A stretch of DNA of 35,497 nucleotides from Myxococcales bacterium (GTDB taxonomy: Bacteria > Myxococcota > Myxococcia > Myxococcales > JAKAPL01). Below, in pieces: positions 3,213 to 26,196 of the stretch (positions are counted from its first letter, which is position 1; each line of letters opens with the position of its first letter). Where the stretch lies: assembly GCA_021783235.1 (NCBI GenBank), contig JAJXUD010000049.1, positions 1-35,497 on the forward strand. Reading direction: 5' to 3'. The notes beneath the pieces are model-generated. The model was not told where the DNA came from. It did not search any database and saw only the letters and a program-made list of their open reading frames with translations. Both the position numbers and the translations under genes were made by a program.

Positions 3213-4882
3213 CGCGAGATCCGGAGCTTCTTGATCCGGACGAGGACGAAGTACCAGGTGGCGACGGAGCCGAAGAGCATCGCGGCGAGGGCGATGGCGA
3301 TGACGGCGACGATGGGCACGCCGTGGAAGCTCCACGGCTCGCGCGCGAGGCTGATGACGGCGCCGACCACGAGCGAGGAGCCGAGCATGCCGACGAGCAG
3401 CACCACCGAGACGCGGCGCAAGGCGTCGGTCAGATCCTCGAACGGTCGTCCCTGCACGTTGACCGCGAACTTCCCGCCCTCGAGATCGAGCAGGATCTGC
3501 GAGAGCTGCGTCGGCAGATCCTGAGCCATCTCCTGCAGCCGCAGGACTCCCTTGAGGAGCCCGCCCTGGAGCGAGGCCGGGGAGAGCCCGCCGAACAGCA
3601 GCTGCCGCACGTACGGCATGGTGGTCGCGCCGATGTCGAGATCCGGGTCGAGCTGCCGCAGGACGCCCTCGGCCGACACCGAGGCGCGCGAGAGGAGGGC
3701 GTAGTCCTTGGGGATCCGGATCCGGTAGCGGACGGCGAGGTCCAGGAGATCGCGCAAGAGGCTGCTCGCCTCCACGTTCTTGAGGCTCTTGACCCGGTAG
3801 CGCGAGAGCAGCGCGGCGATGTCGCCGCGAAAGGCCGCGAGGTTCGTGCGCGCGTCCGGGATACCCACTCGGTAGAGGAGGCGGGCCACGGTGTCGGCGT
3901 CGCCGATCGCCACCGCGACGGTGAGCATCACGAGCGTCTGCTGCATCTCGGGGCTCAGCCGCCCGACGAGGCCGAAGTCGATGATCGCGGTCCGGCCGTC
4001 CGGCAGGTAGAGGAGGTTCCCCGGGTGCGGGTCGCCATGGAAGAGGCCGTCGTCGAAGAGCTGGTGGAAGCTCTCCTCGACCACCCGCTGGGCGAGCAGC
4101 TTGCGCGTCTCGGGCTCCTCGACGTCCGTGATCTTGATGCCCTGGAGGTAGGACATCGTCAGCACCGAGCGGGCGGAGAGCTCGTCGAAGACCTTCGGGA
4201 TGACGATGGCCGGGCGGCCCTCGTTCTTCTGCGCGAACTCGCGGATGTTCTTCGCCTCGTTCTCGAAGTCGAGCTCCTCGTGGATGGCGCGGTCGAACTC
4301 CTCGACGATGCCCGAGGGCGTGTAGACGCCCACCTCCTCCACCACCGCCTCGAGCGCCCGGGCGAGGTAGTCGAGCAGGTCGAGGTCGGTCTCGATCTTC
4401 CGCTCGATGTCGGGCCGCTGGACCTTCACCACCACCTCGTCGCCCCCCTTCGTGCGGGCGCGGTGGACCTGGGCGATCGAGGCCGAGGCGAGCGGCGTGG
4501 GATCGATCCAGGCGAAGGCCTCGTCCGCCGGCCTGCGGAGCGCCCGCTCGATCTGCGCTCGGACGGTCTCGAGCGGAATCGGCGGGGCCGCGTCCTGCAG
4601 GCCGCGCAGCTCGTCGACGACCTCGGCGGGGAGCAGGTCGGCGCGCGTCGAGAGCACCTGGCCGAGCTTGATGAAGGTGGGGCCGAGGTCCGAGAGCAGC
4701 TCGCGGAAGCGGCGCGCCGTCGAGAGCCGCCGCAGCTCCTCCGGCGAGGGGGCCTCGCCCTCGGGCAGGGGGACCTTGTCGCGCAGCCGCGAGCGGGCGA
4801 GCAGCTCGCCGAAGCCGTGGCGCACGACGATGGCGGAGATCTGCCGCAGCCGGGCGAGATCCTGGAAGGCTTCGCGGAGCAT
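3185..4882 (-). CDS. ubiB: UbiB/ABC1/ADCK-family atypical kinase
   Basis: A 565-residue member of the UbiB family of protein-kinase-like ATPases, needed for ubiquinone biosynthesis or lipid homeostasis at membranes. It shows the family-specific KLGQ motif (72-75), the Ala-rich loop ASASIAQVHRA (132-142) replacing the Gly-rich loop, the ATP-binding Lys in VVKVQRP (153), the catalytic segment FHGDPHPGN (281-289) and the metal-binding DFG (302-304). Two C-terminal transmembrane helices (about 491-511 and 522-548) anchor it. There is no Shine-Dalgarno before the ATG; a TAGCTT element ends nine bases upstream, suggesting a leaderless or very short-leader mRNA. It is the first gene of the operon with the Mla-type transporter, which links it by position to lipid transport. 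Length and motif order are typical. Confidence 0.93.
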   Translation of the reverse strand: MLREAFQDLARLRQISAIVVRHGFGELLARSRLRDKVPLPEGEAPSPEELRRLSTARRFRELLSDLGPTFIKLGQVLSTRADLLPAEVVDELRGLQDAAPPIPLETVRAQIERALRRPADEAFAWIDPTPLASASIAQVHRARTKGGDEVVVKVQRPDIERKIETDLDLLDYLARALEAVVEEVGVYTPSGIVEEFDRAIHEELDFENEAKNIREFAQKNEGRPAIVIPKVFDELSARSVLTMSYLQGIKITDVEEPETRKLLAQRVVEESFHQLFDDGLFHGDPHPGNLLYLPDGRTAIIDFGLVGRLSPEMQQTLVMLTVAVAIGDADTVARLLYRVGIPDARTNLAAFRGDIAALLSRYRVKSLKNVEASSLLRDLLDLAVRYRIRIPKDYALLSRASVSAEGVLRQLDPDLDIGATTMPYVRQLLFGGLSPASLQGGLLKGVLRLQEMAQDLPTQLSQILLDLEGGKFAVNVQGRPFEDLTDALRRVSVVLLVGMLGSSLVVGAVISLAREPWSFHGVPIVAVIAIALAAMLFGSVATWYFVLVRIKKLRISRWLPRRSSR

Positions 4883-5039: not shown

Positions 5040-5059
5040 TCGGGGAGCTCGCTCCCGGA
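5040..5059. promoter_or_regulatory. Imperfect palindrome, candidate enhancer (UAS) for the kdp sigma-54 activator
   Basis: The 20 bases form an inverted repeat with nine-base arms (eight of nine pairs match) around a two-base centre, with core GGGAGC-TC-GCTCCC. The centre is about 104 bases upstream of the -24 GG of the sigma-54 promoter at 5152, or roughly -128 from the expected transcription start. That distance is normal for upstream activator sites of NtrC-type proteins. The dyad itself is visible; that the regulator encoded at 13412-14797 binds it is inference. Confidence 0.45.
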
Positions 5060-5086
5060 CGGGCCGTTGCGGATTGCAGGGGTGGA

Positions 5087-5102
5087 TGGCAGCTTTCCTG
5101 CG
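5087..5102 (+). promoter_or_regulatory. Weak sigma-54-like site upstream of kdp
   Basis: TGGCAGCTTTCCTGCG keeps the invariant GG-N10-GC spacing of sigma-54 promoters but is poorer than the site at 5152 (CTGC instead of TTGC, TGGCAG instead of TGGCAC). It may be a decoy or a secondary promoter, or it may be chance in GC-rich DNA. Confidence 0.2.
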
Positions 5103-5151
5103 AAAGTGCACGGCGATCGCTGTGCCAGTGGCCGAGAACCGACTGCTCCAG

Positions 5152-5167
5152 TGGCACGACGGTTGCT
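5152..5167 (+). promoter_or_regulatory. Sigma-54 (-24/-12) promoter of the kdp locus
   Basis: TGGCACGACGGTTGCT matches the sigma-54 consensus TGGCACG-N4-TTGC[A/T] at every defined position, with GG and GC separated by exactly ten bases. The predicted start is about 12 bases past the GC, near 5178. It points into the outer-membrane-protein remnant (ATG 5185) and the kdp genes with no obvious terminator between. A sigma-54 promoter needs an AAA+ activator; a gene for one lies convergently at the other end of the locus, and a palindrome sits about 100 bases upstream. Confidence 0.75.
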
Positions 5168-5184
5168 GTTGCCTGCAGCTCGAG

Positions 5185-5407
5185 ATGAACGACCTCGCCT
5201 TCGCGCTCACGGCGCTCGCCGTTCCCCTGTGCGCTTCGCCCGCGATCGCTGACGGCGGCTCGCCGCCGGCCCCCTCTGCCTTCGCCGACTTCTCCTGGAT
5301 GTCGGGCAACGCCGGCGCCTCGGAGCGGCCGCTCTCGGCTGGACCGTTCGGGGGGCGAGCCGCGCGTCGACGCCGCGGCACCGCTCGCGATGCTGGTCAA
5401 CCTGTGA
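5185..5407 (+). pseudogene. Remnant of a BBP2/OmpL-like outer-membrane beta-barrel gene
   Basis: From the ATG at 5185 the frame encodes a signal peptide (MNDLAFALTALAVPLCASPAIA) and then a mature start GGSPPAPSAFADFSWMSGN followed by a PL...F segment. The run resembles the N-terminus of putative beta-barrel porins of the BBP2/OmpL type (F.F.DF.W.NGN...PL....F.PE.RVD). At a run of six G (5350-5355) the frame shifts. Reading with one G less continues as GEPRVDAAAPLAMLVNL and stops at 5405-5407. So a frameshift and then loss of the several-hundred-residue barrel are apparent. I recall such porins next to kdp genes in other genomes, but cannot check this here. It could also be a short exported peptide unrelated to porins. 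Confidence 0.45.
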
Positions 5408-5420
5408 GGTCATCGCCCCG

Positions 5421-5504
5421 ATGAGAGATCTCGTCTTCGTGCTCGCGACGGTCGGCTTCTTCGCCCTCTCTTGGCTCTATGCCGCGGGATGCGCCCGGCT
5501 CTAG
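5421..5504 (+). CDS. 27-residue single-span membrane peptide upstream of kdpF
   Basis: ATG 5421 to TAG 5504 encodes MRDLVFVLATVGFFALSWLY followed by AAGCARL. It is one hydrophobic helix with a short polar C-terminus containing Cys-Ala-Arg-Leu. The stop codon overlaps the Shine-Dalgarno of kdpF, so it sits inside the kdp operon and is probably translated with it. Its size and topology resemble KdpF, but KdpF itself is the next gene. I recall similar short peptides with an R.C.RL-type ending just upstream of kdpF in other bacteria, but cannot check. It may stabilise or modulate the Kdp complex; that role is a guess. Confidence 0.6.
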   Translation: MRDLVFVLATVGFFALSWLYAAGCARL

Positions 5505-5513: not shown

Positions 5514-5603
5514 TTGGGTTTCGATGCCTTGCTGGGGCTCGTGGTCAGCGTTGGGCTCTGCGTCTATCTCGTCTACGCGCTGCTGCGTCCGGAGAGGTTC
5601 TAG
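5514..5603 (+). CDS. kdpF: KdpF, small subunit of the potassium-transporting ATPase
   Basis: A TTG-started 29-residue peptide, (M)GFDALLGLVVSVGLCVYLVY followed by ALLRPERF. KdpF proteins are single-span peptides of about 29 residues ending in a short YALL.PE.F-type tail, which this matches well. KdpF binds KdpA and helps hold the KdpFABC complex together. The gene is preceded by AGGAGG and lies three bases before kdpA. It is too short to be found by most ORF callers. Confidence 0.85.
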   Translation: MGFDALLGLVVSVGLCVYLVYALLRPERF

Positions 5604-5606
5604 GAC

Positions 5607-7328
5607 ATGACCGCCATTGGCTGGATCCAGATCATCGCCTTCTTTGCGCTCGTTCTGCTCCTCACGAAGCCGCTCGGGCTCTACCTCTACCGAGTGTTCG
5701 AGGGCAGGCGGCGGCCACTCCCGCGGATCGTGGGGCCGATGGAGCGATTCTTCCTCCGGCTCTGCGGCGTCGACCCCTCGGTCGAGCAGGACTGGAAGGA
5801 GTACGCCTTCTCTCTCCTCGCCTTCAGCCTCTTCGGCATGCTCGTGACCTATGCGCTCGAGCGCCTCCAGCACATCCTGCCGCTCAATCCGCAGCGGTTT
5901 CCCGCCATCGAGCCCGCCCTCGCGTTCGACACGGCCGCGAGCTTCACGACGAACACGAACTGGCAGGCCTATTCGGGCGAGTCGACGATGAGCGACCTGA
6001 CCCAGATGGCCGGGCTCGCCTGGCACAACTTCACCTCGGCGGCGGCGGGGATCGGCGTGGCGCTCGCGCTCGCCCGCGGGCTCACGAGACGCCAGGGACC
6101 CGACGGGGCGAAGACGCTCGGAAACTTCTGGGTGGACCTCGTCCGCGCGGTTCTCTTCGTGCTCTTGCCCATCTGCGTCGTGGCGGCGCTGTTTCTCGTC
6201 TCGCAGGGGGTCGTCCAGAGCCTCGCGCCGTACCGTGACGTGACGACCCTCGAGGGACCGAGGCAGATCCTCCCGATGGGGCCGGTCGCCTCGCAGGAGG
6301 CCATCAAGGAGTTCGGCACCAACGGCGGCGGCTTTTTCAACGCAAACAGCGCCCACCCGTTCGAGAACCCGACGCCCCTCACGAACCTCGTCGAACTCCT
6401 GCTCATCTTCGCGATCCCCGCGGCCCTGACCTACACCTACGGCCGGATGGCGCGCGACAGCCGGCAGGGCTGGGCGCTCTTCGCCGCCATGTCGATGCTC
6501 TTCTTCGCCGGGGTGGGCGTCTGCTACGGGGCCGAAGCCCGCGGCAACCCCGCGCTGCGCGGCCTCGCCGTCTCGCAGTCCACGGGGAACCTCGAGGGGA
6601 AGGAGGTGCGCTTCGGCGTCGCCGCCTCGGCGCTCTTCGCGACGGTGACCACCGACACCTCCTGTGGAGCCGTCAACTCGATGCACGACAGCTTCACGCC
6701 GATCGGCGGCCTGGTCACCCTCGCGAACATGGAGCTCGGCGAGGTGATCTTCGGCGGGGTCGGCGCGGGACTCTTCGGGGCCCTCGTGTTCGTGCTCCTC
6801 GCGGTCTTCATCGCGGGGCTCATGGTGGGGCGAACCCCGGAGTATCTGGGCAAGAAGATCGAGGCGCGCGAGATGAAGCTCGCGATGCTCTTCGTCCTCG
6901 TCTTCCCCGCGATCATCCTCTGCGGGTCGGCCTGGGCGGCGGTCGCGCCCGCGGGCGTCGCCTCGCTCGGAAACGCCGGACCGCACGGCCTCTCGGAGAT
7001 TCTCTATGCCTTCTCGAGCAGCGCCGCGAACAACGGCTCGGCGTTCGCGGGGCTGAACGCCAACACGCCTTGGTGGAACGTGGTCCTGGCGCTCGCGATG
7101 CTCGCGGGCCGCTTCCTCATGATCGTCCCGGTGCTCGCGCTCGCCGGCGGGATGGTCGGAAAGAAGGTGGTCTCTCCGGGGCTCGGGACCTTCCCGACGG
7201 ATGGCCCGCTCTTCGTCGGGCTGCTCGTCTCGGTCATCGTCATCGTCGGGGCGCTAACCTTCTTCCCGGCCCTCTGCCTGGGGCCGATCCTCGAAGAGAC
7301 CCTGGCTGGCGGCGGGAGGCTGTTCTGA
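5607..7328 (+). CDS. kdpA: KdpA, potassium-translocating channel-like subunit
   Basis: A 573-residue polytopic membrane protein, slightly longer than the E. coli protein (557). It begins with the typical [20 protein letters not shown] helix. It carries family blocks [15 protein letters not shown] (about 114-128), [20 protein letters not shown] (about 236-255) and [13 protein letters not shown] near residue 475. KdpA is related to Trk/Ktr channels; it binds K+ in a selectivity filter and passes it through a tunnel to KdpB. TGATG couples its stop to the kdpB start. It should be made under K+ limitation. Confidence 0.97.
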
Positions 7329-9376
7329 TGGCGAGTCACGGCAAGGATCTGTCGCTCTTCGACCCCGGGATCGCGCGGGCCGCTGCGATCGAGAGCCTCG
7401 AGCGGCTCGACCCGAGGGCGGTGGCTCGAAACCCGGTGATGCTCGTCGTCGAGGTCGGTAGCGCCTTGACGACGTTCCTCTGGATCCGCCAGCTCGTCGT
7501 CCATCCCCCCGGCGCGCCGCCGCCCTGGTTCGGTGGCCTCGTGAGCCTCTGGCTCTGGTTCACCGTGATCTTCGCGAACTTTGCCGAGGCGATGGCCGAG
7601 GGGCGCGGCAAGGCCCAGGCGAGCGCGCTGCGAAAGATGAGAAAGGAGGTCACGGCCCGCCGGCGGGTCGGCGATCGGGTCGAGGAGGTGTCAGCCTCGG
7701 CGCTCCGCAAGGGGGACGTCGTGCTGGTGGAGGCGGGGATGCTCGTCCCAGGCGACGGCGAGGTGATCGAAGGCGTCGCCTCGGTGGACGAGTCCGCCAT
7801 CACGGGAGAGTCGGCGCCGGTCATCCGGGAGTGCGGCGGCGACCGGTCGGCAGTGACGGGTGGCACCAAGGTGCTCTCCGACCGGATCGCCGTTCGAATC
7901 GGCGCGAACCCCGGCGAGTCATTCCTCGATCGGATGATCGCGCTCGTGGAGGGCGCGGCTCGTCAGAAGACTCCGAACGAGATCGCGCTCCACATCCTCC
8001 TCGTGGGCCTCACGATCGTCTTCCTCCTCGCCTGCGTGACCCTCGTCCCGCTCGCGATGCACCTGGGCGTCGCGCTCCCGGCCACCTCCGTGGTGGCGCT
8101 GCTCGTCTGCCTCATCCCCACCACCATTGGCGGGCTCCTCTCCGCCATCGGGATCGCGGGGATGGACCGGCTCCTACGCAAGAACGTCATCGCGACGAGC
8201 GGCCGAGCGGTAGAGGCGGCCGGCGACGTCGACACCTTGCTCCTCGACAAGACGGGAACCATCACGCTGGGAAACCGGATGGCCACCGCGCTCTTGCCGA
8301 TGCCGGGAGTGGATTCCGAGGCGCTCGCCGACGCGGCGCAGCTCGCGAGCCTCGCGGACGAAACCCCGGAGGGACGATCGGTCGTGGTCTTCGTGAAGGA
8401 GCGCTTCAGCCTCCGTGGCCGGGAGGTGGCGGCGATCGGGGCTGAGTTCGTCGCGTTCTCCGCGCAGACCCGCATGAGCGGCTGCGACCTCTCGGGCCGT
8501 TCGATTCGCAAGGGCGCCGTCGAGGCGGTGCGGAGCTGGGTCCGCTCGAACGGCGGCGAGGTGCCGGGCGAGCTCTCGGCGATCTCGGACCGGATCTCCG
8601 ACGCTGGAGGCACGCCACTGGCGGTCGCCGAGGAGCGGCGCGTCCTCGGGGTGATCCAGCTCGAGGACGTGGTGAAGGGTGGAATCCGCGATCGGTTCCA
8701 GCGCTTCCGCGCCATGGGAATCCGGACCGTCATGATCACGGGAGACAACCCGCGCACCGCCAAGGCGATCGCTCGCGAGGCTGGGGTCGACGACTTCCTC
8801 GCCGAGGCCACTCCGGAGGCGAAGCTTCGCCTCATCCGGGAGGAGCAGGCCAAGGGGAAGCTCGTCGCGATGACGGGCGACGGGACCAACGACGCCCCTG
8901 CGCTGGCGCAGGCGGACGTGGGGGTGGCGATGAACAGCGGGACTCAGGCCGCCAAGGAGGCCGGCAACATGGTCGACCTCGACTCGAACCCGACGAAGCT
9001 GCTCGAGGTGGTCGAGGTCGGAAAGCAGCTCCTGATGACGCGCGGCACGCTCACGACCTTCTCGATCGCGAACGACGTCGCGAAGTACTTCGCCATCCTA
9101 CCGGCGATGTTCTCGAGCGCTTTCCCGGAGATCGGGGCGCTGAACGTGATGCACCTCGCCTCGCCGTTCAGCGCCGTCCTCTCGGCGGTGATCTTCAACG
9201 CGCTCATCATCGTGCTCCTCATCCCGCTCGCGCTGCGCGGCGTCCGCTATCGCCCGCTCGGCGCCGCCGCGCTGTTCCGCCGCTCGATGCTCGTCTACGG
9301 CCTCGGTGGAATCGTCGCGCCCTTCCTCGGCATCAAGCTCATCGACCTCTGCCTCCAAGCCTTCGGGCTGGTATAG
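7328..9376 (+). CDS. kdpB: KdpB, P-type ATPase catalytic subunit
   Basis: A 682-residue P-type ATPase that energises K+ uptake. The phosphorylated Asp lies in LLDKTGTIT at residue 307, the same number as in E. coli KdpB. It also has the actuator-loop [21 protein letters not shown], and the hinge [20 protein letters not shown] followed by [19 protein letters not shown]. The ATG at 7328 uses the last base of the kdpA stop; an upstream extension of the open frame is rejected because it overlaps kdpA. All catalytic residues seem intact. Confidence 0.97.
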
Positions 9377-9383
9377 GAGCCCC

Positions 9384-9983
9384 GTGACGACGAACCTCCT
9401 CGTTGCGATCCGCGCGACGCTCGCGACCCTGCTCCTCACCGGCATCGTCTACCCGCTCTCCGTGACGGGCCTCGCCCAGCTGCTCTTCCCCTCGCGCGCG
9501 AACGGCAGCCTCGTGAAGGACGAGCGGGGTCGGACGGTGGGCTCCGAGCTCCTCGGGCAGCGCTTCGCCGCGCCCACCTATTTCCACTCGCGCCCGTCGG
9601 CGGCTGGCGAAGGAGGATGGGACGCCCTGGCCTCGGGTGGCTCGAACCTCGGGCCGACCTCGCGGCAGCTCCACGATCGGGCGGCGTCCGAGGTCGGTCG
9701 GCTCCTGGCCGAGGGAGGGGGCCCCGGCCCGGTGCCGGCCGATCTCGTGACCAGCTCCGGCAGCGGCCTCGACCCGGATCTCTCGGTCGAGGCCGTGGTC
9801 TTTCAGATCCCGCGCGTGGCCAAGGCACGCGGCGTCGCGCCCGAGCGGTTGAGGGTCGTCGTGGACGGGCAGATCGAGCCGCGGGAGCTCTGGGTTCTCG
9901 GCGAGAGGCGGGTGAACGTGCTCCTCTTGAACCTCGCGCTCGATCGCTGGTTCGGCGCCGGGTCGTCGCCGGGGTCGCCCTGA
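9384..9983 (+). CDS. kdpC: KdpC, accessory subunit of the potassium ATPase
   Basis: A 199-residue protein (E. coli 190) with one N-terminal membrane helix (LLVAIRATLATLLLTGIVYPLS) and a periplasmic domain. Family markers include LGQRFAAPTYFHSRPSA, VPADLVTSSGSGLDPDLS, then AVVFQIPRVAKARG. KdpC acts with KdpB, perhaps raising ATP affinity. The GTG start at 9384 follows a weak GGAG and is the only start giving the normal N-terminus. It lies seven bases after kdpB. Confidence 0.95.
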   Translation: MTTNLLVAIRATLATLLLTGIVYPLSVTGLAQLLFPSRANGSLVKDERGRTVGSELLGQRFAAPTYFHSRPSAAGEGGWDALASGGSNLGPTSRQLHDRAASEVGRLLAEGGGPGPVPADLVTSSGSGLDPDLSVEAVVFQIPRVAKARGVAPERLRVVVDGQIEPRELWVLGERRVNVLLLNLALDRWFGAGSSPGSP

Positions 9984-9986
9984 GCG

Positions 9987-11141
9987 ATGGTCGAGCCGAA
10001 GGCGCGTGCCGAGGACTTCCTCGAGCTGGTCCACCGCGCGCGCCGCGGCCGCCTCAAGCTCTACATCGGCTTCGCGGCGGGGGTCGGAAAGACCTACCGG
10101 ATGCTCGAAGAGGCGCACGCGTTGGAGAAGCGGGGCGTCGACATCGTCCTCGCCTACGTCGAGCCGCATGGGCGCGTCGAGACCGCCGCGCTGGTCGATG
10201 GACTCGAGCTGATTGCGCGCCGCTCGATCGAGTACCGCGGGGTGACGGTCGAGGAGATGGACCTCGACGCGGTGCTCGCCCGCAGGCCCGAGATCGCGGT
10301 CGTCGACGAGATCCCCCATACGAACGCCCCGGGCAGCCGGAACCGAAAGCGCTACCAGGACGTGCTCGAGATCCTCGAGGCCGGCATCAACGTCATCGGG
10401 GCGCTCAATATCCAGCACCTCGAGAGTCTCAAGGACGTGGTCGAGCGAGCGACCGGAGTCGGGATCCGCGAGACGGTCCCCGATCTGTTCCTCGAGAACG
10501 CCGATCAGGTCGTGAACCTAGACCTCTCCGTCGAGGATCTCCTCGATCGGCTGCGCGGCGGGAAGATTTACGCGCCGGAGAAGGTGCAGTGGGCGCTCGA
10601 GCACTTCTTCGAGGAGCCGCACCTCTCCGCGCTTCGCGAGCTCGCGCTGCGCGAGGTCGCCGAGAGCGTCGAGCGGACGAGCGAGGCCAAGGCGCGCTCC
10701 GGCGCGTCGGACGAGCGGGTGGCGAGGCCGGGCCGGGTCATGGTCTGCCTCTCCTCCTACCCGCCGCACGCCGCGACGCTCCTGCGGAAAGGCTCGCGCA
10801 TGGCCGGGCGACTGAGCTCCGACTGGTTCGTGGTCTACGTCGAGACGCCGCGGGAGGCGCCCCACCTCATCGACGCCGAGGCGCAGCGGCATCTGCTCGA
10901 CAACGTCGCGAAGGCCCGCGAACTCGGCGCCGAGGTGGTGCGGATCCAGGCGAAGGACCCGGTCGAGGGACTGGTGGACTTCGCCCGCTCGCACGGCGTC
11001 GGTCACATCATCATCGGCCGCTCGCATCAGCCCTGGTGGAAGCAGCTCCTCGGCCTCTCGACGCCGCTCCGGCTCGTCAGGGAGGCGTCCAGCTTCGACG
11101 TCCACATCGTCGCGTTCGACGAGGGGGAGGGGCGGTCATGA
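9987..11141 (+). CDS. kdpD: Short KdpD: N-terminal KdpD and universal-stress domains only
   Basis: A 384-residue protein equal to the cytoplasmic N-terminal half of KdpD. Residues 1-230 form the KdpD domain, with a Walker-A-like FAAGVGKTYRM (about 29-39) and AVVDEIPHTNAPGSRN (about 107-122). Residues 250-375 form a universal-stress/nucleotide-binding domain ending in VGHIIIGRSHQPWWKQLLG. The four membrane helices, GAF domain and histidine kinase core of full KdpD (about 895 residues in E. coli) are absent. The next gene, overlapping by ATGA, supplies a separate kinase. In E. coli this N-terminal region stabilises the KdpE-DNA complex and senses c-di-AMP or ATP in various species. Here it may act as a trans sensor for the kinase or for the transporter. 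Confidence 0.9.
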   Translation: MVEPKARAEDFLELVHRARRGRLKLYIGFAAGVGKTYRMLEEAHALEKRGVDIVLAYVEPHGRVETAALVDGLELIARRSIEYRGVTVEEMDLDAVLARRPEIAVVDEIPHTNAPGSRNRKRYQDVLEILEAGINVIGALNIQHLESLKDVVERATGVGIRETVPDLFLENADQVVNLDLSVEDLLDRLRGGKIYAPEKVQWALEHFFEEPHLSALRELALREVAESVERTSEAKARSGASDERVARPGRVMVCLSSYPPHAATLLRKGSRMAGRLSSDWFVVYVETPREAPHLIDAEAQRHLLDNVAKARELGAEVVRIQAKDPVEGLVDFARSHGVGHIIIGRSHQPWWKQLLGLSTPLRLVREASSFDVHIVAFDEGEGRS

Positions 11142-12961
11142 GGCTGCGGGGTAAGCTGCTCCTCGCCGAGGCGCCGATGGTCCTCGCGCTCGTGGCGATC
11201 GCGATCGCGGGAGCCATGCTCGTGTCTCGGCTGGGGCAAGGCGCAAACGCCATCCTCGAGGACAATTACCGGAGCGTCCTCGCGGCGCAGCGGATGGAGG
11301 CGGCCCTGGCCCGGCTCGACCGGGGCGCGCTCTTCGTGGTCGCTGGGGAGCGGGCGCGAGCCAAGGGGGAGATGGCCGGCCAGCGCCAGCGCTTCGAGGA
11401 GGAGCTGGAGGCCCAGGAAGAGAACATCACCGAACCGGGGGAGCGCGAGGCGACGGTGGCGCTCCGGGCGAGCTGGGCCGCCTTCGGGCGAGCGCTGGAC
11501 GGGCTCCTCTCCGAGGAGGAGCCCGGCCGCCTCGCGGCGAGCTATTTCGAGCGGCTCGAGCCGCGCCTCGATGGGACCGACCGCGCCGCCCAAGACGTCC
11601 TCGAAATCAACCAGGACGCGATGCTGAGGAAGAGCGACTTGGCCAGGAGGCTCGCGAACCGCTCGATCGGCTGGCTCACGGCCATCGCGCTCGCCGGGAG
11701 CCTGCTCTCGGTCTTCGCCTCGGCCGCTCTGACGGAGCGGGTCTTGAGGCCGCTGTCCGTGCTCGGGCAGGCAGCGCGGCGGATCGGGGAGGGGGACCTC
11801 GCCGCGCGGGCCGTGATCGAGGGTGAGGACGAGATTGCCCGGCTGGCCCGCGAGCTCAACACGATGGCAGAGCGGCTCCAGAAGTATCGGCAGAGCTCTC
11901 TCGGCGAGCTGCTCGAGGCGCAGAGAGCGTCCCAGGCCACGATCGACAGCCTCCCGGATCCGGTGCTCGTCGTCGGCCTGGGGGGCGAGCTGTTGCAGGC
12001 GAACCGGGCCGCCGGCGAGGCGCTGAAGGTCGATGTCGAGCGGGGCGGGATCGGGGTGCTCGATCCGGCCATTCGAGAGCTGGTCGAGAAGGCGATCCAG
12101 CACGTGGCGGCAGGGAGGGGAGCCTACGCGCCAGGGGTGGACCAGGCGGCGCGGCTCGTGACCTCGGAGGGAGAGCGCTACCTCCTGCCCCGCGCGAGTC
12201 CGGTCGAAGCGGACGAGGGCGGGATTTCGGCGACCACCGTCGTTCTTCAGGACGTGACGCGGCTCCTGCGCTTCGAGGAGCTGCGGAACGATCTCGTCGC
12301 CACCGTGGCGCACGAGCTCCGCACTCCGCTGACGTCGCTCCGGATGTCGGTCCACCTGCTCGTCGAACGGGTGGCCCCGGAGCTCGACGAGAAGCTCGCC
12401 GACCTCGTGTTCGCGGCGAGGGAGGACTGCGAGCGGCTGCAGTCGATCGTCGACGAGTTGCTCGATCTCTCGCGCATCCAGGCGGGCCGAATCGAGCTGC
12501 GCCGGAGCGCGGTCGCGGCGGAGGCGCTCGTGGATCGGGCCGCGGAGGCGGCGCGGGCGGCCGCCGCGGAGCGGAACATCCGGCTCGAGTCCGAGGCGCT
12601 TCCGGGGATCGGCGAGGCCTTCGTCGATCCGGAGCGGGTTCAGCTCGTCTTTTCGAACCTCATCGGCAATGCGCTCCGCGCCAGCTCCGAGGGAGGTGTG
12701 GTGACGGTGCGCGCGGTAGCGGCGCGCGACCGGGTTCGCTTCGAGGTGCAGGACGGCGGCCCCGGGGTCCCGCCGGAGTATCGACAGGCGATCTTCGAGA
12801 AGTACTTCCGGGTGCCGGGCGCGGCCTCGGGAAGCGCGGGACTCGGTCTGTTCATCTGCCGGGAGATCGTCCAGGCCCATGGGGGCGAGATCGGCGTCGA
12901 GAGCGAGCCGGGCAAGGGGAGTACGTTCTGGTTCGAGCTTCCGGCCGCCGCCGTGGAGTGA
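11138..12961 (+). CDS. KinB-like membrane histidine kinase of the kdp locus
   Basis: A 607-residue kinase with TM1 (about 12-30), a helical periplasmic domain with NYRSVLAAQRMEAALARLDR (about 43-62), TM2 (177-197), HAMP (198-252), PAS (263-375), HisKA with the phospho-acceptor His392 in TVAHELRTPLT, and a C-terminal ATPase domain with N box NLIGNA and GLGLFICREIV. The periplasmic four-helix style recalls KinB of Pseudomonas, whose partner AlgB is an NtrC-type regulator. The ATG overlaps the short kdpD stop. It ends four bases before the convergent EIIA gene. Its likely partner is the regulator at 13412-14797; this pairing rests on position and family precedent. Confidence 0.88.
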   Translation: MRLRGKLLLAEAPMVLALVAIAIAGAMLVSRLGQGANAILEDNYRSVLAAQRMEAALARLDRGALFVVAGERARAKGEMAGQRQRFEEELEAQEENITEPGEREATVALRASWAAFGRALDGLLSEEEPGRLAASYFERLEPRLDGTDRAAQDVLEINQDAMLRKSDLARRLANRSIGWLTAIALAGSLLSVFASAALTERVLRPLSVLGQAARRIGEGDLAARAVIEGEDEIARLARELNTMAERLQKYRQSSLGELLEAQRASQATIDSLPDPVLVVGLGGELLQANRAAGEALKVDVERGGIGVLDPAIRELVEKAIQHVAAGRGAYAPGVDQAARLVTSEGERYLLPRASPVEADEGGISATTVVLQDVTRLLRFEELRNDLVATVAHELRTPLTSLRMSVHLLVERVAPELDEKLADLVFAAREDCERLQSIVDELLDLSRIQAGRIELRRSAVAAEALVDRAAEAARAAAAERNIRLESEALPGIGEAFVDPERVQLVFSNLIGNALRASSEGGVVTVRAVAARDRVRFEVQDGGPGVPPEYRQAIFEKYFRVPGAASGSAGLGLFICREIVQAHGGEIGVESEPGKGSTFWFELPAAAVE

Positions 12962-12965
12962 TCCG

Positions 12966-13415
12966 TCAGCGCGCGGGAACGGCGTCGAGCAGCGCGTGGA
13001 CGTCCTCGGCGCTCTTCGCGGCGAGCAGCCGCCGCCGGGCCTCGGCGTCCGAGAGCTCCTGTCCCACCGCCGCGAGCGCCAGCAGGTGGCGGCCGCCCTG
13101 CACGGGGGAGATGAAGGCCACGAAGATGTGAACCGGCTCCCCGTCGGGTGAGTCGAACGGGATTCCTCCCTCCGAGAGCCCGAGGACTCCGACCGTTCGC
13201 GCCACAGCCAGCTTGGCATGAGGGACGGCGACGCCGTGTCCGAGCGCCGTCGAGCCGAGCTGCTCGCGCTCGATCAGCGCGGCCCGCACGAGGTCGGCCG
13301 AGAGGTCGACCTGCGCGGCGAGCAGCTCGGCGAGCTCGCCGATGGCGCCCTCCCGTTCCGTCGAGGAGAGCCGGAGGCGGATCCCGGACGCGGGGACGAG
13401 GTCGCCGAGCCTCAC
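12966..13415 (-). CDS. EIIA-Ntr (PtsN)-like phosphotransferase protein
   Basis: A 149-residue PTS EIIA domain of the fructose/nitrogen class. The active His66 lies in GHGVAVPHAKL, matching GNGIAIPHGKL of E. coli PtsN. The following TVGVLGLSEGGIPFDSPDG and VHIFVAFISPVQGGRHLLAL segments align well with PtsN. PtsN proteins carry phosphate from the NPr/PtsP chain and regulate other proteins by contact; in E. coli unphosphorylated PtsN binds KdpD and raises kdp expression. The GTG start overlaps the upstream regulator's stop by four bases. Its place beside a Kdp locus suggests a dedicated Kdp modulator. A longer upstream start is rejected because it runs into the regulator gene. Confidence 0.87.
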   Translation of the reverse strand: MRLGDLVPASGIRLRLSSTEREGAIGELAELLAAQVDLSADLVRAALIEREQLGSTALGHGVAVPHAKLAVARTVGVLGLSEGGIPFDSPDGEPVHIFVAFISPVQGGRHLLALAAVGQELSDAEARRRLLAAKSAEDVHALLDAVPAR

Positions 13416-14797
13416 GGTTCGCCTCCGCCCGGCGGCGCTTCGAGCCGCTTGCGTTTGCGCCAGAGAGTCGAGGCGTCGATCCCGAGCAGCCGCGCGGCGT
13501 CCTCGAGCGTCGGACTCCGCTGCAGCACCCGAAGGAGGTGCTCGCGCTCGATCTGCTCGAGGGTGAAGTTGCCGCCCAGCCGCGGCAGATCGACCGCCTG
13601 CGCGGCGATCCGATCGGGGAGCGCCTCCGGGATGATGGTGCCCGAAGGCCAGAGGATCGTCGCGCGCTCCATGGCGTTGCGCAGCTCGCGGACGTTTCCG
13701 GGCCACGGGTGGGCGAGCAGCGCCGCCTCGGCGGCCGCCGCGAGCTCGGGAGGGGGCCTCCCGGCCGCGCGGGCGAAGAAGGCGAGAAAGCCGCGCGCGA
13801 GGCGGGGGATGTCCGCGAGCCGCTCTCGGAGGGGGGGGACCCGCACTTCGATGACGTCGAGGCGGAAGAAGAGGTCCTCCCGGAACCGGCCGGCCTTCAC
13901 GTCGGCCTCGAGGTCGCGATTCGTGGCGGCGACGACACGCACGTCGGCGCGGCGGGTGCGGGTCTCGCCCACGCGTTCGAACTCTTTGTCCTGGAGGAAG
14001 CGCAGGAGCTTCGCCTGGAGGCCAGGTGAGATCTCGCCGATCTCGTCGAGGAAGAGCGTGCCCCCCTCGGCGGCCTCGACCCGGCCCGGCTGGTCCCGAA
14101 TCGCGCCGGTGAAGGCTCCCTTCGCGTGGCCGAAGAGCTCGCTCGCGAGCAGATCCTCCGAGAGCGTCGGGCAGTTCACCGTGACGAAGGGTCGATGGCG
14201 GCGAGGACTCTGGGCGTGCGCGGCCCGCGCCAGGAGCCCTTTGCCGGTGCCGCTCTCCCCCCGAAGAAGGATCGCCGCCTCGGAGGCCGCGGCGCGGGCG
14301 ACGACGTCGAGCGCCGTGCGCATGCGCGGAGCCTCCGTCGACAGATCGATGGCCGGGACCTCGCCGGCGAGTCGAGACTCGAGATCCGCGACCAGGCGGC
14401 TGGCCGCTCGGCGCTCTGCCTGCTTCGCGACGACGTGGCGGATCTGGTCGGGCGTGAACGGCTTCGGAAGGTAGTCGAACGCACCCCGCTTGATCGCCTC
14501 CACCGCGCTGTCGAAGGTCGCGTAGGCGGTGACGACCACCACCGACAGATCCGGGCGCGCGCTCAGCAGGCGCGGGAGGAGGTCGAGGCCGCTCTCGGCC
14601 CCGAGCCGGAGATCGACGAAAGCGAGGTCGAACGGGGTGCGCTCGAGCGCCTCGAGGGCAGCGCCCAGTCCCGGAACGGAGGTCACCCGGCAGCCTGCGC
14701 CGTCGAGGCAGACGGTCAGCGCCGTGCGGATGTTCTTCTCGTCGTCGACGACGAGGACGCGCAGCCCGCTCGAGGTCTCTGGCGCTTCCAGCGGCAC
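13412..14797 (-). CDS. NtrC-family sigma-54-dependent response regulator
   Basis: About 461 residues from the GTG at 14797: a receiver domain (phospho-acceptor Asp62 in FVDLRLG, acidic pair DD in LVVDDEKN), an AAA+ domain with GESGTGKG (180-187), the sigma-54 contact motif GAFTGA (227-232) and Walker B GGTLFLDEIG (245-254), then a Fis-type helix-turn-helix (about 425-455, LEDAARLLGIDASTLWRKRK). It should activate sigma-54 promoters when phosphorylated. A further in-frame TTG at 14833 would add 12 residues; it has a faint AAGG before it, so the start is uncertain. It is co-transcribed with the EIIA gene and converges on the kdp kinase. No KdpE (OmpR type) gene was seen. Confidence 0.92.
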   Translation of the reverse strand: MPLEAPETSSGLRVLVVDDEKNIRTALTVCLDGAGCRVTSVPGLGAALEALERTPFDLAFVDLRLGAESGLDLLPRLLSARPDLSVVVVTAYATFDSAVEAIKRGAFDYLPKPFTPDQIRHVVAKQAERRAASRLVADLESRLAGEVPAIDLSTEAPRMRTALDVVARAAASEAAILLRGESGTGKGLLARAAHAQSPRRHRPFVTVNCPTLSEDLLASELFGHAKGAFTGAIRDQPGRVEAAEGGTLFLDEIGEISPGLQAKLLRFLQDKEFERVGETRTRRADVRVVAATNRDLEADVKAGRFREDLFFRLDVIEVRVPPLRERLADIPRLARGFLAFFARAAGRPPPELAAAAEAALLAHPWPGNVRELRNAMERATILWPSGTIIPEALPDRIAAQAVDLPRLGGNFTLEQIEREHLLRVLQRSPTLEDAARLLGIDASTLWRKRKRLEAPPGGGEP

Positions 14798-14901
14798 GAC
14801 TTTAGGGATGCACCCTCGGCCCCTTTGGGTCAATCGCGACCTTTCGAGGCTGCCCGCCCGGCTACCCCGCGTCCGGGGGCTCTGTTAGCTTCTCGTCCCC
14901 T

Positions 14902-25749: not shown

Positions 25750-25753
<4 letters not shown>

Positions 25754-26196
25754 GCAAGGCACCGGCCGCGATCGAGGCGGCCGAGGCCAACGGCGGCCCC
25801 CGCGCGACTCCGCTGATCCTCCTCGTCGACGACTTCGTGGACAACCGCGAGATGTACGCCGAGTACCTCGCCTTCTCGGGCTTTCAGGTCGCCGAGGCCG
25901 CGGACGGCCACGAGGCGCTCGCCAAGGCCTTCGAGCTCCTGCCCGACATCATCCTGATGGACCTCTCGCTCCCCGGCATGGACGGCTGGGAGGCGACGCG
26001 GCGGCTGAAGCAGGACGAGCGCACCCGCGGGATCCCGGTCATCGCCGTCACGGGCCACGTCCTCGACGGCCACGCCGAGGGCGCGCGCGGGGTCGGCTGC
26101 GACGGCTTCGTCGCGAAGCCCTGCCTGCCCGAGGCGCTGGTCGCCGAGGTGCGCCGCATGCTGGAGCGGAGCCGCTCTGGCCGTGGAGGGCGCTGA
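25750..26196 (+). CDS. Single-domain response regulator (CheY-like)
   Basis: A 148-residue receiver domain only. It has the acidic pair in LVDDFVDN (Asp27, Asp28), phospho-acceptor Asp71 in IILMDLSLPGMDGWE, Thr101 in VIAVTGH and Lys123 in FVAKPC. A 20-residue N-terminal tail precedes the domain and no output domain follows. It likely works by protein contact or in a phosphorelay with the kinase upstream, with which it overlaps by four bases. Confidence 0.92.

Follow-up and report, generated by a model that had tools for sequence, protein, structure and literature searches.

A predicted sigma-54 promoter and a degenerate two-site enhancer upstream of the kdp operon in a Myxococcales bacterium

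Results

Organization of the kdp locus

The window is the whole 35,497-nt stretch of Myxococcales DNA that was analysed (contig JAJXUD010000049.1), and all positions are counted from its first letter. The kdp locus in it contains the following features.

Starts at 4882, minus strand: ubiB (ABC1 kinase), the upstream neighbour
5040-5059, plus strand: dyad of the earlier note, TCGGGGAGCTCGCTCCCGGA, judged a chance palindrome outside the system
5068-5078, plus strand: predicted distal enhancer site, TGCGGATTGCA, differing from TGCA-N3-TGCA at one position
5099-5110, plus strand: predicted proximal enhancer site, TGCGAAAGTGCA, degenerate, its half-sites separated by one extra base
5152-5167, plus strand: predicted sigma-54 -24/-12 promoter, TGGCACGACGGTTGCT, from the consensus match and positional counterparts in relatives
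5185-5424, plus strand: truncated BBP2-type porin ORF of 79 codons (signal peptide and N-terminus, frameshifted), from pairwise matches
5421-5504, plus strand: small membrane-peptide ORF of 27 aa, MRDLVFVLATVGFFALSWLYAAGCARL
5515-5604, plus strand: kdpF, TTG start, MGFDALLGLVVSVGLCVYLVYALLRPERF
5607-7328, plus strand: kdpA (PF03814, 816 bits)
7332-9376, plus strand: kdpB, start inferred from relatives
9396-9983, plus strand: kdpC, start approximate
9987-11141, plus strand: short kdpD with the KdpD sensor domain and Usp but no kinase, from domain search
11138-12961, plus strand: separate histidine kinase (HAMP-PAS-HisKA-HATPase)
12966-13415, minus strand: ptsN-like EIIA gene; the activator gene's end overlaps it
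13412-14833, minus strand: NtrC-type response regulator, proposed kdp activator (receiver, sigma-54 AAA+ with GAFTGA, Fis-type HTH)

The stop of the porin ORF overlaps the start of the next ORF (ATGA). The MRDLVFVLATVGFFALSWLYAAGCARL peptide is kept ahead of kdpF in many relatives. The kdpD product has 384 aa without HisKA and is not a full-length KdpD of the E. coli type; its best match was the NCBIfam model KdpD_non_kinase, at a score below that model's cutoff. All three domains that define the NtrC class are intact in the regulator. No OmpR-family KdpE was detected among the window ORFs searched against Pfam, and the only other receiver-domain ORF found among them was a lone receiver at 25750-26196.

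The regulator and ptsN-like genes are convergent to the kdp operon. The linkage of ptsN to the regulator was not seen in the relatives, which gave weak and distant matches only. Since EIIA-Ntr acts on KdpD in E. coli, a link of the ptsN-like gene to K+ control is conceivable by analogy.

A sigma-54 promoter is predicted upstream of kdp

The site TGGCACGACGGTTGCT lies in the intergenic stretch between ubiB and the kdp leader. It has no mismatch to the sigma-54 consensus at the defined positions, with GG and GC 10 bp apart within TGGCACG-N4-TTGCW. The 35-kb window has no other exact match and the 4.58 Mb genome has just one more; the reversed-pattern control also gave one match in the genome. 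When both strands of the window were scored with an approximate sigma-54 matrix, TGGCACGACGGTTGCT reached 19.4 versus 12.1 for the runner-up; for scores of at least 17, the expectation is about 0.0025 sites in 1,500 nt. Among the promoters of all loci examined, TGGCACGACGGTTGCT is the nearest to consensus. Transcription is predicted from the sequence to start near 5178. The genome also carries rpoN (210 bits).

These results bear out the claim of the earlier note that a near-perfect sigma-54 promoter stands here. Its placement upstream of kdp was correct too, though kdpF is about 350 nt and kdpA about 440 nt downstream, and the remnant porin ORF and the small ORF lie between the promoter and kdpF. 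A simple scan detected neither a sigma-70-like promoter nor a terminator between 5152-5167 and kdpA, and the Rfam search over the window gave zero matches.

The other exact sigma-54 match of the genome (G000:C96:29781-29796; L002, 1501-1516, minus strand) lies between an NtrC-type regulator gene, which closely precedes it, and a strong hairpin with a T run (96 nt, z -4.7), which closely follows it; TGCA-containing repeats are found upstream of the site. Rfam gave no match. By its sequence, this site looks like the promoter of a sigma-54-driven small RNA or attenuator.

A conserved enhancer pair in relatives and its degenerate copy in the window

Any gapped palindrome was searched for de novo in the 220 nt upstream of the relatives' promoters, with the window excluded. 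TGCA-N3-TGCA was found in 15 of 17 independent groups, while across 200 shuffles no palindrome exceeded 7. The usual arrangement in relatives is two copies of this motif, 31 or 32 bp apart. The motif was then examined in 20 held-out loci that had not been used in its discovery. An exact TGCA-N3-TGCA together with a sigma-54-like site in range was present in 15 of the 20, versus 1 of 160 shuffled sequences, and the distance from the enhancer site down to the -24 element was exactly 74 nt in most. Also among the 20 were a locus with neither regulator nor site (L071), one with one-mismatch sites including one at 74 nt (L087), and one with a promoter-like site but no enhancer site at up to one mismatch (L082). 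The arrangement of enhancer and promoter was seen in none of 17 further loci without a linked regulator.

In the window, TGCGGATTGCA and TGCGAAAGTGCA lie in register with a spacing of 32 bp, at -84 and -52 relative to the -24 element. They form the best-scoring pair of the whole window under the two-site model (joint p ~0.0005), but the pair score is 12.7 versus 27-40 in relatives. The sequence TGCGAAATGCA, present in two relatives (L051 and L085), is intact and near-identical to TGCGAAAGTGCA. A search of the window's own genome for the enhancer pair, allowing 3 mismatches at most, returned a single place, unrelated to the window pair; the latter is missed because it is too degenerate for the pattern. 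Judged by its sequence, the window appears to carry a degenerate version of the conserved enhancer pair.

The earlier note had placed the enhancer at a different dyad, 5040-5059. A palindrome does exist there: TCGGGGAGCTCGCTCCCGGA is imperfect, with 8 of 10 pairs matching, and is centred about 103 nt before the -24 element and about 128 nt before the predicted start. Such 20-mers are expected by chance at 0.78 per 250 bp of the window, and a second comparable one occurs at 5107-5126. Against the conserved enhancer motif TCGGGGAGCTCGCTCCCGGA scored very poorly (-8.6), and no counterpart was found in the relatives' loci. The dyad was rejected as an enhancer on these three grounds: chance-level frequency, motif score and lack of conservation. 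In the NtrC-type arrangement of enhancer plus promoter that the note had described, the promoter was retained and the named dyad gave way to the conserved-type sites at 5068-5078 and 5099-5110. The corrected position spares a binding experiment aimed at the wrong dyad.

Promoter, enhancer and regulator are inherited together

In relatives whose kdp locus carries the regulator, sigma-54-like sites occupy one of two places. Either they immediately precede kdpF, about 205-260 nt ahead of kdpA, or they immediately precede a BBP2 porin gene that is itself followed by kdpF, about 1,340 nt ahead of kdpA. No sigma-54-like sites were found at matching positions in the regulator-less kdp loci. GG and GC are invariant in a tally of 41 sites, a result that is partly circular because the sites were picked with the sigma-54 matrix or pattern; the enhancer spacing is free of this matrix circularity.

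A search of 60 relatives detected KdpA in 37. Orthologues of the regulator (at least 548 bits, versus about 480 or less for paralogues) were present in 82 other Myxococcota genomes. KdpA and the regulator occur together in 81 of 195 Myxococcota genomes; 2 have the regulator without KdpA, 21 have KdpA without the regulator, and 91 lack both. KdpA accordingly accompanies the regulator in 81 of 83 genomes (Fisher p = 6e-32, uncorrected for phylogeny), and the KdpA-only genomes mostly have a divergent KdpA (~50-60% identity). In about 20 fetched relatives the regulator is within about 13 kb of kdpA, in several gene orders.

The earlier note had proposed conservation in related genomes as a check, and the outcome was divided. 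Order-level relatives that have the activator have the site as well, but the single same-family genome with kdp (G001; locus L040, G001:C113) has kdpABC-kdpD-kinase with neither a regulator orthologue nor a sigma-54 site. The sigma-54 kdp system seems to have been lost there. Sigma-54 control by an NtrC-type activator of the same locus, as that note had suggested, is nevertheless well supported at the sequence level by conservation, co-occurrence and absence in activator-less loci.

The same architecture at other loci

A pattern scan for the enhancer pair plus promoter over about 85,000 genomes returned 89 stretches, mostly from Pseudomonas, of which 80 were examined. In a Deferribacteraceae genome the architecture is found at kdp, with regulator, promoter, kinase and kdpA in a row. 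In two Corallococcus genomes it lies upstream of the regulator gene itself, and in many Pseudomonas genomes it is ahead of genes other than kdp. Because of these Pseudomonas copies, the enhancer pattern does not by itself point to kdp, and this type of enhancer therefore serves a wider group of regulators.

In Pseudomonas, mainly the fluorescens group, L105, L131 and about 50 other loci (L102-L180) have the tandem TGCA-N3-TGCA and sigma-54 site followed by two small ORFs. The architecture is 113 nt long in nearly all of them, and there is no kdp gene. An opposite-strand ORF further downstream looks, by eye, like an MgtE-type Mg transporter.

A porin lies between promoter and kdpF in many relatives

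An intact BBP2 (PF07642) porin is encoded between the promoter and kdpF in many relatives. In the window its remnant consists of a signal peptide and about 40 residues, followed by an apparent frameshift and truncation in the assembled sequence. The Pfam search of the 57-aa remnant gave no match, and pairwise matches alone reveal the porin. The remnant matched the porin beside kdp in G001 at 77% over 39 aa and was closest to the porins that are divergent from kdp in L034 and L040. Loss of the porin seems to have happened independently in another genome (G054), which kept the promoter beside kdpF.

In a Myxococcales MAG (L125, 1035-1127, minus strand), a BBP2 porin of weak similarity is preceded by the enhancer pair and a sigma-54 site, and no kdp genes are present within the fetched stretch. 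This suggests that the porin may be an unlinked target.

Discussion

Our analysis suggested that the sigma-54 promoter very probably transcribes the leader and kdpFABC-kdpD-kinase, and that it is activated by the NtrC-type regulator of the same locus at two TGCA-N3-TGCA dyads 31-32 bp apart. The promoter, the conserved enhancer pair, the gene set, the synteny and the co-inheritance can all be seen in the sequence. From these we infer how the system would work. Low K+ would be sensed by the kinase-less KdpD (KdpD and Usp domains) in partnership with the separate kinase, which would phosphorylate the regulator. The regulator would bind and oligomerise on both TGCA-N3-TGCA sites, and its GAFTGA AAA+ domain would open the sigma-54 polymerase complex at the putative transcription start.

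Three points weigh against this reading: the weak pair score of the window enhancer relative to relatives, the same-family genome without regulator orthologue or site, and a leader of about 430 nt to kdpA that contains a broken porin ORF. The first two would also fit a different situation, in which another promoter or regulator (e.g. an OmpR-type KdpE encoded elsewhere) mainly controls kdp and the sigma-54 site is a decaying relic left after partial loss of the enhancer. We consider this unlikely, since no promoter at the other loci examined comes as close to consensus as that of the window, the regulator gene has an intact ORF, and the simple scan detected no sigma-70-like promoter in the leader. 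That the sigma-54 match arose by chance in a GC-rich intergenic region is far less probable still. The second exact match in the genome and the single match of the reversed control pattern would be in keeping with chance, but the score is far above background, and the site is conserved with a spaced enhancer in the held-out relatives and absent in regulator-less loci.

Another possibility refines the preferred explanation rather than excluding it, and we give it slightly less than an even chance. The promoter and enhancer may originally have driven the BBP2 porin, in a single porin-kdp operon whose distal part was kdp; the porin would have decayed in the present genome, and the promoter would now serve kdp alone. 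Many relatives have the promoter just upstream of an intact same-strand BBP2 porin preceding kdpF, a truncated porin N-terminus directly follows the window promoter, and the porin-less G054 retains the promoter next to kdpF. However, other relatives have the promoter directly upstream of kdpF with no porin, the spacing in the window (-84/-52) is more like that of the porin-less class than that of the porin class (-106/-74), and in L034 and L040 the porin that the remnant resembles is divergent from kdp.

E. coli uses a full-length KdpD and the OmpR-family KdpE. The locus studied here shares with it the pump, the KdpD sensor domain and a two-component system beside the pump genes, whereas the E. 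coli kdpFABC promoter is a sigma-70 promoter and the present regulator is sigma-54-dependent, with the kinase as a separate protein. For E. coli, the remark of the earlier note that sigma-54 control of kdp is not the textbook mode is true, but this mode had already been reported in Desulfovibrio vulgaris (PMC3333781, PMC4641369). In strain Hildenborough, DVU3334 is reported to regulate the kdp operon, according to DAP-chip mapping and sigma-54 promoter prediction (PMC3333781, PMC4641369), and it is listed with GAFTGA under potassium uptake in the sigma-54 regulome (PMC4641369). Known cases of sigma-54 control of kdp are this sulfate reducer and two relatives which the published work names (PMC3333781, PMC4641369). 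The window holds the gene set of the D. vulgaris type (PMC3333781; PMC4641369): an NtrC-family GAFTGA response regulator in the kdp locus, and a divided KdpD, with the K+ sensor and UspA in one protein and the kinase in another. The two differ in that DVU3334 regulates its own operon (DVU3334-3339), which is also targeted by two further regulators, while the regulator gene in the window is convergent with the operon and is followed by ptsN.

NmpR of Myxococcus xanthus is likewise a myxobacterial NtrC-like regulator with paired dyads upstream of sigma-54 promoters (PMC11841059). It is a different regulator with a different signal (oxygen), and it acts from GCGCA-N5-TGCGC, preferring a gap of 14-15 nt (PMC11841059), compared with TGCA-N3-TGCA and a gap of 20-21 nt here. 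A literature search, mostly of open-access papers, returned nothing on sigma-54 control of kdp in myxobacteria. The mode itself is known, and the present case is therefore a solid extension of the D. vulgaris precedent and not a new principle. What is new is its extent in Myxococcota, the enhancer, and the coupling to an outer-membrane porin, truncated in the present genome.

Sigma-54 control is probably the prevailing wiring in Myxococcota with this type of kdp, and the two TGCA-N3-TGCA dyads 31-32 bp apart supply a testable enhancer. Joint control of porin and pump is also suggested. We propose tentatively, at somewhat below even confidence, that in most Myxococcia with this kdp type a sigma-54 activator has replaced KdpE, that one two-site enhancer switches the porin and the Kdp unit, and that the same enhancer code recurs at kdp in Deferribacteres. 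If this is true, K+ entry across the outer and inner membranes would be switched together by one two-site enhancer.
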